Assembly: GCF_900634715.1 (NCBI RefSeq)
Contig: NZ_CAAAFO010000147.1
Coordinates: 68,733-101,348, forward strand
Length of the DNA stretch: 32,616 nucleotides
Direction of reading: 5' to 3'
Source of the DNA: Candidatus Protofrankia californiensis
GTDB lineage: Bacteria; Actinomycetota; Actinomycetes; Frankiales; Frankiaceae
Numbering within the stretch: the first letter of the stretch is position 1; every line of letters starts with the position of its first letter. Below are positions 23,197 to 32,443 of this stretch, one piece after another. The notes under the pieces are model-generated. The model saw only the letters and a program-made list of their open reading frames with translations. It searched no databases and was not told the origin of the DNA. The translations under genes and the position numbers were made by a program.

Positions 23197-23667
23197 TTAC
23201 CAGCGGTAGTGAGCGAAGGCCCTGTTGGACTCCGCCATCTTGTGGGTGTCCTCGCGCCGCTTCACGCTCGCGCCGAGACCGTTACTGGCGTCGATCAGCT
23301 CGTTCATGAGGCGCTCGGTCATGGTCTTCTCACGCCGCTGCCGGGCGTAGCCGACAAGCCAGCGCAGCGCGAGTGTCGTACTCCGGCTCGCGCGTACCTC
23401 GACCGGTACCTGGTAGGTGGCGCCACCGACCCGGCGGCTGCGCACCTCCAGGGTCGGCTTGACGTTGTCGAGAGCGCGCTTGAGCGTGACCACGGGGTCG
23501 TTGCCGGTCTTCTCCCGAGCGCCCTCCAGCGCCCCGTAGACGATCCGTTCGGCCAGCGACTTCTTGCCGCTCAGGAGAACCTTGTTGACCAGCGCTGTCA
23601 CCAGCGGTGAGCCGTAGACCGGATCGACGACGACGACGTGCTTGGGAGCCGGGCCCTTGCGTGGCAT
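23197..23667 (-). CDS. rpsG: 30S ribosomal protein S7
   Basis: S7 nucleates the 30S head. The sequence [60 protein letters not shown] and the terminal [14 protein letters not shown] match the family at the standard 156 residues. The ATG at 23667 overlaps the rpsL stop by one base (TGATG). The longer open frame upstream overlaps rpsL and is a shadow. Confidence 0.98.
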
Positions 23668-24041
23668 CAGGCCTTCTCCTTCTTTGCTCCGTACTTGCTG
23701 CGTGCCTGCTTGCGGTTGCGGACACCCTGCGTGTCCAGCGTCCCACGAACGATCTTGTAGCGGACGCCCGGAAGGTCCTTCACTCGGCCGCCGCGCACCA
23801 GGACGATCGAGTGCTCCTGCAGGTTGTGCCCCACCCCCGGGATGTAGGCGGTGACCTCTATCCCGCTGTGGAGCCGGACCCGGGCAACCTTGCGCAGCGC
23901 CGAGTTCGGCTTCTTGGGCGTGGTCGTGTAGACGCGGGTGCACACGCCACGACGCTGCGGGCTCCCCTTGAGCGCCGGGGTCTTGGTCTTTTCGACCTTG
24001 TCCTGCCGGCCCTTGCGGACCAACTGCTGGATCGTCGGCAA
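23667..24041 (-). CDS. rpsL: 30S ribosomal protein S12
   Basis: S12 sits at the decoding centre and is the streptomycin target. The start (L/M)[19 protein letters not shown], the [20 protein letters not shown] loop with [18 protein letters not shown] and the [20 protein letters not shown] region are present. The resistance-associated lysine (TTPKKPN) is wild type. A TTG at 24041 with GGGAG upstream gives exactly 124 residues; a longer frame to 24146 adds residues unlike S12. Confidence 0.97.
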
Positions 24042-24412
24042 CGCCGCTCCCGTTCCTGTTCCGTTCCTGCCGGTACCTGCTGTTATGTCAGCTGTGTCCG
24101 ACCCACGCGGTCGGGCGTGTCGCAATCCCTGGGAAGACCGGAACAACCGGGACGGTCTGCCATGGGAGTACGCCCGCCCGCCTTCGTGAAGGCCGGGTCA
24201 TCCCCGTCACCGCCGGCCCGGCAGGACGGGCCACAGTGCCATGGGATGGCGCAAGACACAGGTCAACCTTGCAACGCATAGCGCCGCAGAAAGCGAGACT
24301 ACAGACCCGGCAACGGCTGTGTCGAATCGGGGTACGGCAAACGCCTCGAGGACCACGACATCCCGGTCGGCAGGTCGTGCTGTCGCGGCGCCGAAAGGCT
24401 GCAGGCCGCAGT
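24042..24412. promoter_or_regulatory. str-operon upstream region
   Basis: This 371-base gap between rpsL and the RNA methyltransferase should carry the promoter of rpsL-rpsG-fusA-tuf, because rpoC no longer lies next to rpsL. On the minus strand the best pair I find is TTCGAC, 17 bases, TGTAGT (about 24335-24297), which is weak. A short inverted repeat GCCTTC/GAAGGC lies near 24180. No credible gene is present. Confidence 0.4.
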
Positions 24413-25363
24413 CTAGTCCGGCAGTTTCCGCAGCTTGCAGACGAAGAAGCCCTCGAACGCCGGGCCCGGCAGGATGCGCCGGGCGCCGGCAAGCGCCGGA
24501 TGGAAGGTCTCGGTCCGCCAGTGCCGCAGACCCGGCCGCCATGCGCCCGGCGCGAAGCCGTCGATGTCGACCTCGATCGGGCACACCTCGACGGGATGGT
24601 GACGCAGAAGGTAGCTCAGCGGCGCCTCGTTCTCCTCCGGGCCGAACGTGCAGGTGGAGTAGACGAGGATGCCGCCGGGACGCAGCAGCCGGCAGGCCGC
24701 CACCAGCATCTTGCGCTGCAGCCAGCCATAGTCGATCACTCGCTGCTCGGTCCAGTACCGCAGCGCCGAGGACTCCCGCAGATCGACCAGGCCCTCACCG
24801 CTGCACTGGGCGTCCAACAGCACCCGGTCGAAGCGCTCGGCTATGAACTTGTCGGCGTACTGCGCGGGGTGACAGGTCGTCTCGGCGAGGCGGACGTGGA
24901 ACTGCTGGGTGACCTCGCGCAGCTTGTCCAGCCGGGGTCTGATGGCGTCGTTCGCCCACAGGCGCGCGTCATTGCCGACCAGTGCCGCGATGTGCGCCGT
25001 CTTGCCGCCCGGCGCCGCACACAGATCGATGATCGACCCGGCCGGTGCGGGCTCGAGGGCCAACGCGGGCACCAGGCTCGAGATGTTCTGGATATAGGCG
25101 TGGCCGCCGCCGAACACCTCCGACCGCGACAGCACGCGCTTGTCGCCACGCAGGAGATAGCCGTCGGGGCACCAGCCGAGCGGGTCGAGGGTGAGCCCGA
25201 GATCCGCGATGGCGCGGTGGACTGCATCCACGCCCAGCGGTGAGAGCTGGTTGACCCGGACACCGGTACGGCGGTCCAGGCACAGACGGTCGACCACCTC
25301 GGACTCGGCCAGCTGAAGGATCTCGGACAACCGCCGCACGAACAGCGTCCGCTTCCGGCTCAC
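24413..25363 (-). CDS. NOL1/NOP2/Sun-family RNA (cytosine-5) methyltransferase
   Basis: This enzyme probably methylates a cytosine in rRNA or tRNA using S-adenosylmethionine. In the 316-residue form the SAM-binding motif DLCAAPGGKTAHIA begins near residue 113, motif IV DAQCSGEG has Cys187, and motif VI YSTCTFGPEENE has Cys238, so both catalytic cysteines are present. Motif IV is usually DAPCSG; here Pro is Gln. There is no NusB-like N-terminal domain, so it resembles RsmF or archaeal Trm4 types rather than RsmB; the target cannot be named. The GTG at 25363 has AGGGGG upstream; the frame is open to 25462. It lies between rpoC and rpsL, divergent from the orphan small gene. Confidence 0.88.
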   Translation of the reverse strand: MSRKRTLFVRRLSEILQLAESEVVDRLCLDRRTGVRVNQLSPLGVDAVHRAIADLGLTLDPLGWCPDGYLLRGDKRVLSRSEVFGGGHAYIQNISSLVPALALEPAPAGSIIDLCAAPGGKTAHIAALVGNDARLWANDAIRPRLDKLREVTQQFHVRLAETTCHPAQYADKFIAERFDRVLLDAQCSGEGLVDLRESSALRYWTEQRVIDYGWLQRKMLVAACRLLRPGGILVYSTCTFGPEENEAPLSYLLRHHPVEVCPIEVDIDGFAPGAWRPGLRHWRTETFHPALAGARRILPGPAFEGFFVCKLRKLPD

Positions 25364-25733
25364 CCAACCCCCTGCCACGTCCTGATCGCGCCGCCGGCCA
25401 CGGGTACGCCGGTCCGGCAACACCGTCTCCATCGCCAAAATACCCACCATCGGTCCGGCCACCAGCCGGTGACGGTACCGCGGACGCCCTGCCGGTCACG
25501 CCCGTGCGATTCATCCGACACCGGCCTTGATACGCCTGGCATGCCGAGCGTATCGAGGGTCACAGGCCCGACCCAGCCGCGCCGGTCCGGTTGCCGACTG
25601 CGGCCGCGGGCAGCGGTCGGTGCGCCTGTTTTCCCGGGCCGGCGCCGCCGGCCCCGGTTACCCCCGCCGGCACCCCTGACCACCTGCGAAAACGCCGCGG
25701 GCCGCAGCGTCACCAAAAAAAATTCCCCGCCGC

Positions 25734-25803
25734 ATCACAGCTTTTGTCGCATCGCACATGTCGTGTTCGAGACCAAATACTTGGGTACTGCGAAAGCTGT
25801 GAT
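25734..25803. promoter_or_regulatory. 11-bp inverted repeat upstream of the orphan gene
   Basis: ATCACAGCTTT (25734-25744) and AAAGCTGTGAT (25793-25803) are perfect complements separated by 48 bases. They lie upstream of the promoter-like site. They could be paired half-sites for a regulator or a transposon footprint. Confidence 0.45.
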
Positions 25804-25824
25804 CCGAGTCATGATGTTGGATCC

Positions 25825-25853
25825 TTGCCCAGTAATCGGCGTCCCGATAACTT
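25825..25853 (+). promoter_or_regulatory. putative promoter of the orphan gene and ABC exporter
   Basis: TTGCCC (25825-25830), a 17-base spacer and TAACTT (25848-25853) resemble a housekeeping promoter. The predicted start near 25860 would give a leader of about 38 bases to the ATG at 25898. Confidence 0.42.
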
Positions 25854-25897
25854 CGGTTTTGTCACCGTCAAGTTCGGCTGACCACGATGGAGGACAG

Positions 25898-26209
25898 ATG
25901 CCCACTTCTTTTCAGCCCCCCGACTGCGCAGAAATTATCCCGTCAAGCACCTTCGGGCTGGTTATAGAGGTATCCGAGGACGTGGAGATATCCGTTTTCA
26001 GTGGAACGGAAGAAGCTGCTGAAAAGCCGATCCTGGCATCGCTGGTCACCCGCGCCCCGCAGCCGGATGACGGCCACGACAACCAGCTTCTGAGCATCCA
26101 TCCCGGCCCTGACGCCGACACCGACCCGATCCCCGACCCGATCCCCGATCTGGAAACGGCGGCCGACAGCGCCGAGAACGCAACGAAAACCCCGCCCAGC
26201 GACGGCTGA
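25898..26209 (+). CDS. small acidic orphan protein upstream of an ABC exporter
   Basis: I do not recognise this family. The 103-residue product starts MPTSFQPPDCAEIIPSSTFG and continues LVIEVSEDVEISVFSGTEEA. Its first half is mixed hydrophobic/acidic, with a single cysteine at residue 10. From about residue 54 it is Asp/Pro-rich (DADTDPIPDPIPD) and ends in a soluble, likely disordered tail. There is no signal peptide or membrane segment. GGAGGA lies about 5 bases before the ATG. The gene ends 32 bases before the exporter with no terminator between, so the two are probably co-transcribed. The size and position suggest a precursor peptide or an exporter accessory; the F-x-L-x-(I/V)-x-V stretch at residues 19-25 only loosely resembles FxLD-type leaders, and no Cys/Ser-rich core is present. 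Confidence 0.7.
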   Translation: MPTSFQPPDCAEIIPSSTFGLVIEVSEDVEISVFSGTEEAAEKPILASLVTRAPQPDDGHDNQLLSIHPGPDADTDPIPDPIPDLETAADSAENATKTPPSDG

Positions 26210-26241
26210 GTTCCGGACCAGTACCAGGCAAGCGGCTCACA

Positions 26242-28263
26242 ATGACGACATCTCGCCGGTCGTCCACCGGGACCAGCGGGTGGATCGGGCAGCCGAACCA
26301 CCAACAGACCTCGGCGGGGACGACATTCCCGAAGACCACCGCCACTGTATCCTGGCTGTACGGACGCCTGTTCGCCTGGCTCACCGGGAATCCCGCGGCC
26401 GCCCGCGTCGAGCATTTCATCCGGGACCAGAACAAGGCGACCGTCGCGCACGCCGCTCTTTCTCTGCTGGGTTCGTCGGCACTGGTGGTCGCCCCGTTCG
26501 CAATTCGGAACCTGATCGACGGATGGCTCCTGCGGCTGCGGACGAGCGGCATACTCCTACCGGTATTCCTCATACTCGGCGCCTTTGTGCTCAGCGCCGC
26601 CGTGTCGACGGTGCGGTACATACTGATCGGCTATTTCAGCGAGAAGCTCGCCCTGCGGATCCAGCGCGACCTGCACCAGCACGCGATCGCGCTGCCGTTC
26701 CCCCACTTCGCCCGGGCCCGGCACGGTGATGTCGTCACCCTCTTCACCATCGACACCGCTAAGGTCCAGACCGCGGCCGCGGTCTGTCTGCCCGCCATCG
26801 CGACCATGGCGGTCGAACTCGTCGTCTCCGGAGTGGTCGCATACCTGCTCCAGTGGCGCCTCGCGTTCGCCGTGGCCGTGATCGGCGTGATTCCACTCGT
26901 CCTGCTGCGGCTGGTGCGTGGACGCGTCCGGGCCATCAGCAGGGTGGAGATCGAACGGCACAGCCGCATGGTCGATCATCTCGTCGAGCTGACCGGGCCG
27001 GTGGGAGCGCTGCACATGCGCGCCTTTCGCGCGCAGAGCGCCGGCCAGGAGGAGTTCGAACGGCTGGGCTCGGCCATTTCGACAGCCGCCCGCACCCGCG
27101 TGCAGGTCTTCGCCCGCCTGCAGCTCATCGCCGCGGGAAGTTCGGTGCTGGCAACCATGACCGTGATCGGGTTCGGGGTGTGGCTCACCCTGGATCAGAC
27201 GATGACGGTCGGCACTTTCGTGGCGTTCCTCAGCGTGCTCCTCCTGGCATTCCGTTCCATTGCAGGCTTCGCCAACCTGCGTACCCAGCTCTTCGACGGC
27301 GAGTCCTCCCTCATCCGCATCCTGGCCTTTCTCGACATCCCGCTGGAGCCGGCGCCCGCGGCTGACCGCAGCAATGTCAGACCATTGGCGACGGCCGATC
27401 GGCCACACCCGCCAAAGAGCACTCCGGCGCCGACGGACCCAGCGGCCCCCAGCCCCGAAAGCACTCCCAGACCACCGGTTCACGGCGATCTCGTCCTGGA
27501 GAACGTCTCCTACTCCTACGCGCCCGACGTACCGGCTCCCAGCTGGGCCGTCCGTTCCGTCGACATCGTCGTGGAGCGCAGCGAAATGGTGGCTGTCGTC
27601 GGATTCAGCGGCGCCGGGAAGACCACGCTCTGCCATCTCGCGAGCGGCCTGCTCACCCCCACCAGCGGGCGCGTCCTGCTCGGCGGCCGTGATGCCGCCG
27701 GGCTTTCCCCCACCGCGGGCCGAGCCGCCGTCGGCCTGGTTTCGCAGGAACCGTTCATCCAGCGCCGTACCGTTGCGGAGAACCTCCGCTTCGGGAATCC
27801 GGCTGCAACGACCGACGAGCTCTGGGCCGCCCTGGAGGCGACCGGTCTGGTCACGCTCGTGCGCTCCCTTCCGGAGGGAATCCACACGCCGCTGGGACAC
27901 AGCGGTTACCAGATCTCCGGTGGGGAGCGGCAACGGCTGTCCATCGCCCGCGTACTCGTTCAGAATCCGCGAACCGTCATCCTCGACGAGGCCACGTCGA
28001 ACCTTGACACGCTGACCGAGGATCTCCTGCGCGCCTCCCTCGAACGTCTTCTCGCCGATCGCAGCTGCCTCGTCGTCGCCCATCGGGCGACGATGACCGT
28101 CGCCGCCGACCGCATCTACGTACTGGAAAACGGCACAGTGATGGAGGCCGGCCCACACGACCGGCTCATCCGCAGCGGCGGTATCTACGCCCGGTTGACC
28201 CGTGGACCGGCGGAGAGGACGTCGAGGAAGGAAGCGAAGAAGGAAAGGAACGGCGGCCGGTAG
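26242..28263 (+). CDS. ABC exporter, fused permease and ATPase
   Basis: This 673-residue half-transporter resembles lipid, drug and peptide exporters. After about 65 N-terminal residues, hydrophobic segments lie near 68-95, 102-130, 175-224 (two), 296-316 and 322-345. A Pro/Ala-rich linker (about 370-413) leads to the ATPase: Walker A GFSGAGKT (454-461), Q-loop Gln502, signature SGGER (559-563), Walker B VILDE (579-583) and H-loop His614. No C39 peptidase domain is present, so it would not cleave a double-glycine leader itself. The ATG at 26242 lacks a clear ribosome-binding site; translation may be coupled to the upstream small gene. It is followed by a perfect 20-bp hairpin. The substrate is unknown; the neighbouring small protein is the obvious candidate. 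Confidence 0.92.
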   Translation: MTTSRRSSTGTSGWIGQPNHQQTSAGTTFPKTTATVSWLYGRLFAWLTGNPAAARVEHFIRDQNKATVAHAALSLLGSSALVVAPFAIRNLIDGWLLRLRTSGILLPVFLILGAFVLSAAVSTVRYILIGYFSEKLALRIQRDLHQHAIALPFPHFARARHGDVVTLFTIDTAKVQTAAAVCLPAIATMAVELVVSGVVAYLLQWRLAFAVAVIGVIPLVLLRLVRGRVRAISRVEIERHSRMVDHLVELTGPVGALHMRAFRAQSAGQEEFERLGSAISTAARTRVQVFARLQLIAAGSSVLATMTVIGFGVWLTLDQTMTVGTFVAFLSVLLLAFRSIAGFANLRTQLFDGESSLIRILAFLDIPLEPAPAADRSNVRPLATADRPHPPKSTPAPTDPAAPSPESTPRPPVHGDLVLENVSYSYAPDVPAPSWAVRSVDIVVERSEMVAVVGFSGAGKTTLCHLASGLLTPTSGRVLLGGRDAAGLSPTAGRAAVGLVSQEPFIQRRTVAENLRFGNPAATTDELWAALEATGLVTLVRSLPEGIHTPLGHSGYQISGGERQRLSIARVLVQNPRTVILDEATSNLDTLTEDLLRASLERLLADRSCLVVAHRATMTVAADRIYVLENGTVMEAGPHDRLIRSGGIYARLTRGPAERTSRKEAKKERNGGR

Positions 28264-28549: not shown

Positions 28550-32443
<3,894 letters not shown>

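Follow-up and report, generated by a model that had tools for sequence, protein, structure and literature searches.

Two adjacent genes in the gap between rpoC and rpsL of a Protofrankia genome, encoding a small acidic protein and a fused ABC exporter, are both intact, co-oriented and retained together in five species of the genus. That they are read as one transcript, act jointly and stand to each other as cargo and transporter is what we infer, and a genus-specific two-gene operon in which the exporter carries its small partner is tentatively preferred here. The early-branching Protofrankia are root-nodule symbionts with few cultured strains; a pair that all five examined species have kept, and that the other Frankiaceae surveyed lack, is a candidate genus-specific trait. 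Export would make the small protein a peptide family without known relatives, bearing an export signal not yet described; as an accessory, it would instead be a small ABC-exporter partner of a new type. In actinobacterial genomes it is, in itself, not rare for a variable site to contain a small gene restricted to one genus next to a pump.

The gap between rpoC and rpsL

Most of the window (the whole 32,616-nucleotide stretch of Candidatus Protofrankia californiensis DNA that was analysed) is occupied by the rpoC, str, S10, spc and alpha operon region, and among its named relatives Protofrankia coriariae BMG5.1, Frankia sp. CiP1_Cm_nod1 and Frankia sp. CIT1 are the closest. Three genes lie between rpoC and rpsL, encoding an RsmB/F-type RNA methyltransferase, the small acidic protein and the ABC exporter:

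within 23667-24146, minus strand: rpsL
24413-25462, minus strand: RsmB/F (Nop2/Sun) type RNA m5C methyltransferase gene (PF01189, 4.4e-41), divergent from the pair
25898-26209, plus strand: small acidic protein gene (ATG 25898, stop 26209; 103 aa by translation)
26242-28263, plus strand: fused ABC exporter gene (ATG 26242, stop 28263; 673 aa)
28550-32443, minus strand: rpoC

A preliminary description of this DNA had given the coordinates of the pair exactly and had placed it correctly on the strand opposite rpoC and rpsL, with 32 bases between the two genes, but overlooked the methyltransferase gene in the same gap. The pair is no chance juxtaposition, as the same genes recur in the same order in five Protofrankia species. 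While this linkage stood, the accompanying premise that rpoC and rpsL are normally adjacent did not: in ten other Frankiaceae examined (loci L105-L114) they are separated by 1.9-5.6 kb filled by different genes, those checked against Pfam including a uracil-DNA-glycosylase superfamily gene, a pseudouridine synthase and a CcdA-like antitoxin, among others. The rpoC-rpsL junction in Frankiaceae is therefore a variable accessory site, so that extra genes there are not unusual in themselves. In P. coriariae a gene for a putative Uma2-family endonuclease (L003 8026-8802, minus strand) lies between the exporter and rpoC, and the window has no such gene. An Rfam search returned no match, and a literature search found no paper on the small gene and exporter pair.

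The methyltransferase gene adjoins rpsL in all five Protofrankia, which are the only ones among 35 Frankiaceae to carry it at E ≤ 1e-40, and relatives of 33-40% identity occur in a few other Actinomycetota of the phylum sample; a horizontal gain is possible. Its true start is probably internal, near residue 34, because homology with more distant species begins about there. It is best regarded as a neighbour of the pair and, at most, a candidate member of the unit.

Retention and candidate control signals of the pair

Each of the five Protofrankia genomes carries the exporter, at 74-87% identity to the window copy; it is absent from 36 other relatives searched at E ≤ 1e-120, and without further match in a sample of 198 Actinomycetota genomes at E ≤ 1e-80. 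At a looser limit its best relatives outside the genus share about 32% identity, typical of general ABC exporters, and their neighbourhoods, read by eye, contain no recognisable small acidic gene alongside, a few adjoining enoyl-CoA hydratase-like or ABC-F-like genes instead. Exporter relatives on plasmids have, among the matches listed, at most 35.5% identity, and the plasmid search found no relative of the small protein. In each of the five Protofrankia genomes the small gene immediately precedes the exporter (for G001 this order comes from the P. coriariae record, L003, and a profile search confirmed it), and a small-protein profile of the N-terminal 42 columns detected no further homologue among 35 Frankiaceae, 396 Actinomycetota and 395 genomes of the class, samples that overlap. 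Weak profile matches outside the genus were discarded as noise, their frames overlapping other long reading frames (e.g., nuoL) or coding poorly. The preliminary description asked whether the small gene always precedes this exporter, and it does so in five of five genomes of this one genus; a small gene lacking an exporter was never seen in the genomes searched. Since all five genomes belong to one genus, the pairing shows one ancestral arrangement retained, rather than repeated independent linkage; the small protein forms an orphan family restricted, as far as the searched data show, to that genus.

The sequence upstream of the small gene and that following the exporter contain several candidate control elements:

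25799-25824, plus strand: conserved block TGTGAnCCGAnTCATGATGTTG, immediately before the promoter-like site (20/25 columns invariant in 25798-25822)
25825-25853, plus strand: promoter-like site TTGCCC-17 nt-TAACTT, with hexamers (TTGCC, TAACTT) and spacing fixed in five species
25889-25893, plus strand: ribosome-binding site GGAGG, invariant in five species and adjoining the start codon
28310-28357, no strand assigned: perfect 20-bp inverted repeat with an 8-nt loop, in the interval where the exporter gene and rpoC converge

Actinobacterial sigma-70-type promoters have the form TTGnnn, TAnnnT, and the promoter-like site, which in every one of the five species lies 43-44 nt ahead of the start codon, fits this pattern. 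A simple scan with a stricter consensus did not report it, although its invariance in five species supports the promoter-like site originally noted. In a block of some 75 bases upstream of the start, 17-20 of 25 columns are invariant among the five species, versus 1-11 further upstream, and the segment TGTGAnCCGAnTCATGATGTTG within it is perhaps a regulator-binding site. The hairpin 3' of the exporter (-48.8 kcal/mol over a 71-nt stretch, z -8.7) has no long T-run, and its sequence is not kept in relatives, with a different long hairpin in G003 (L005) and none of at least 10 bp in the other three. It is probably the terminator that the preliminary description had postulated, ending transcription from one or both sides.

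A pair found in one genus only, whose linkage has been tested by evolution within just five related species, and which occupies a variable accessory site holding unrelated genes in other Frankiaceae, would also suit a small protein that is unrelated to transport (a small regulator or stress protein, for instance) and is linked to a genus-specific exporter only through a common promoter. Such a role is considered unlikely, since none of the five species departs from the gene order, promoter-like site or short spacing, even though the flank is not fixed, as seen from the Uma2 gene in P. coriariae.

The two proteins and their possible relationship

The small protein (103 aa, pI 4.05) contains 21 D/E, 3 K/R and one Cys, and matches no family in Pfam, NCBIfam, PHROGs or PADLOC, in keeping with its initial portrayal as acidic and unrecognised. 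A PDB sequence search with it gave two matches only, both to entries called MB07 and, at E 0.5-0.6, not significant. An apparent paralogue in the same genome (34% over 59 residues, E 0.02) was rejected, as the DNA there encodes unrelated genes in its frames. Segment-wise dN/dS among the five orthologues divides the protein into two parts:

residues 12-38: conserved stretch EIxPSSTFGLVIEVSEDVEISVFxxTEE, followed by an unconstrained acidic tail

The five species agree at sixteen of the first 41 residues (M1, E12, I13, S16, S17, G20, L21, I23, E24, S26, V29, I31, S32, V33, F34 and E38, with the GTG start codon of one species counted as M at residue 1). In ratios derived from pairwise Nei-Gojobori dN and dS values, codons 1-38 give a dN/dS of 0.17-0.41, and residues 1-38 are under purifying selection; the 0.75-1.81 of the tail, where poor alignment inflates dN, denotes no visible constraint rather than positive selection. 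Tail length differs between species with the reading frame staying intact, and only scattered single residues of the tail are common to all five. These data bear directly on whether the small reading frame is a gene at all. Upstream of the ATG the frame stays open over a long distance, a common feature of G+C-rich DNA, and the tail is without protein-level constraint, but the low N-terminal dN/dS, the conserved start and ribosome-binding site, and a frame kept despite length changes largely refute the notion of a spurious frame, leaving it very improbable. Structure prediction yielded a pLDDT of 48 for the small protein and of only 38 for the surely folded exporter at equal alignment depth, and is uninformative on disorder because the alignments are shallow, as the exporter's own score demonstrates.

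Descent from an FxLD-family lanthipeptide precursor that degenerated after losing its enzyme might be suggested by the segment STFGLVIEVSED, superficially similar to the FxLD leader (DFDLDVSIVES), and by the presence of FxLD precursors elsewhere in the same genome. Against this, neither TIGR04363 nor any other NCBIfam model matches even at E 10, a profile comparison aligns two columns with a probability of 0.3%, and a Cys-containing core is lacking, so that membership of this family was rejected and such an origin is extremely improbable. The two FxLD-type precursor-like genes of the genome lie at G000:C152:22549-22668 (L129 8538-8714) and G000:C127:34806-34895 (L130 7789-8001), the former adjoining a partly N-masked long open frame that is LanB-like by eye only.

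In contrast to its partner, the exporter belongs to a known and very large class, within which it is divergent; its domains were assigned by Pfam as follows:

residues 73-337: PF00664 (65.8 bits; gathering cut-off 28)
residues 439-586: PF00005 (95.4 bits; gathering cut-off 25), with Walker A, Q-loop, signature, Walker B and H-loop intact in all five species

These two domains with intact ATPase motifs identify it as an ABC exporter. Its Pfam matches comprise ABC_membrane and ABC_tran only, plus generic ATPase cross-matches, with no peptidase family among them and no domain match for residues 1-60, in agreement with the earlier view of a fused exporter without a C39 peptidase. The whole protein is under purifying selection (dN/dS 0.19-0.31, pairwise Nei-Gojobori), and hydropathy reveals about six membrane-helix regions, with a conserved N-terminal extension of some 60 residues ahead of the first helix and a Pro/Thr-rich linker preceding the ATPase. 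The best-scoring NCBIfam models, all far below their cut-offs, are MsbA-related, MsbA and NHLP bacteriocin exporter models; no NCBIfam exporter equivalog cut-off is reached, and no curated model names a substrate. Its PDB relatives by sequence are P-glycoprotein-type pumps, the bacterial ones being TM287/288, Sav1866 and BmrA. No known anti-phage defence system was recognised: partial matches to MADS, limited to the exporter ATPase and the methyltransferase, were taken as shared domains, and the small protein had no match.

If the small protein is indeed cargo, a single promoter would drive its expression and, 32 bases on, that of the ABCB-type exporter, which is expected to act as a homodimer. 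The conserved N-terminal stretch, in which two hydrophobic runs flank a short acidic turn, would be the part recognised by the exporter and perhaps the entire active peptide, and the loose acidic tail may be a spacer or be removed by an unlinked protease, the exporter then delivering the small protein to the cell surface or to the exterior. A leader followed by a variable rest is the pattern of exported peptide precursors, and the cargo role is preferred because such precursors usually show a constrained N-terminus and a free tail, and because the small gene appears to share a promoter with the exporter. Also in its favour are the occurrence of the pair, in this order, in all five Protofrankia and in no other genome searched, a promoter-like site and ribosome-binding site invariant in five species, an N-terminus constrained while the tail evolves freely, and the inclusion of peptide exporters in this ABC class.

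On the other side, the searches found no signal sequence, conserved cleavage site, C39 domain, linked protease or modifying enzyme; any RiPP core would lie in the tail, which evolves as if unconstrained; the protein is strongly acidic, unlike most bacteriocins; and shared descent alone can explain co-retention within one genus. Specifically, hydropathy indicates neither a signal sequence nor a membrane segment, the alignment contains no GG/GA cleavage site common to all five orthologues, and the small protein has no Cys-containing core. The gap holds no RiPP modification enzyme, as the preliminary description had stated, its sole other gene being that of the RsmB/F-type RNA methyltransferase, and no test applied here identified a bacteriocin or modified peptide. 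A bolder extension of the cargo role, namely a new family of unmodified acidic secreted peptides restricted to Protofrankia symbionts, whose short conserved N-terminus would be the export signal for a dedicated peptidase-less ABC exporter and which might have a role in the root nodule, is quite unlikely.

An accessory role fits nearly as well as a cargo role. Here the small protein would remain cytosolic, docking through its N-terminal motif on the exporter or its substrate and tuning activity, with a lipid, drug or metabolite as the transported species. The exporter's resemblance to general ABCB pumps (P-glycoprotein-type, TM287/288, Sav1866 and BmrA being its PDB relatives) is consistent with this, a short conserved motif and loose acidic tail with no export signal would suit a docking protein, and the conserved extension of about 60 residues at the exporter N-terminus could serve as its docking site. 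Conversely, searches of Pfam, NCBIfam and PDB disclosed no resemblance to a known exporter accessory, and the exporter relatives of about 32% identity are without such a small gene, so that this role is judged possible but rather doubtful.

Comparison with known systems

With FxLD lanthipeptide precursors (TIGR04363) the small protein has in common a short alternating-hydrophobic stretch after a Phe near the N-terminus, but it is without their profile match, FxLD motif or Cys-rich core. Lantibiotic operons and bacteriocin genes found in other Frankia are reported to be absent from strain Dg1 (PMC4447401). Peptide and bacteriocin export units (C39-type PCAT and NHLP exporters) likewise place a small gene directly before an ABC exporter, whereas the Protofrankia pair lacks a C39 peptidase, a modification enzyme and a double-glycine leader common to five species, and its product is acidic. 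Leaderless bacteriocin operons (e.g., aureocin A70) also combine a small unmodified protein with an ABC transporter and no processing gene; their products are short and cationic, in contrast to the acidic Protofrankia protein of about 100 aa with its non-conserved tail. The exporter itself resembles ABCB-type homodimeric exporters (MsbA, Sav1866, BmrA, TM287/288) in its fused transmembrane and ATPase domains and complete set of ATPase motifs. None of these characterised members is close, however, and the Protofrankia exporter is set apart from them by its N-terminal extension, its Pro/Thr-rich linker and the small acidic gene linked to it.
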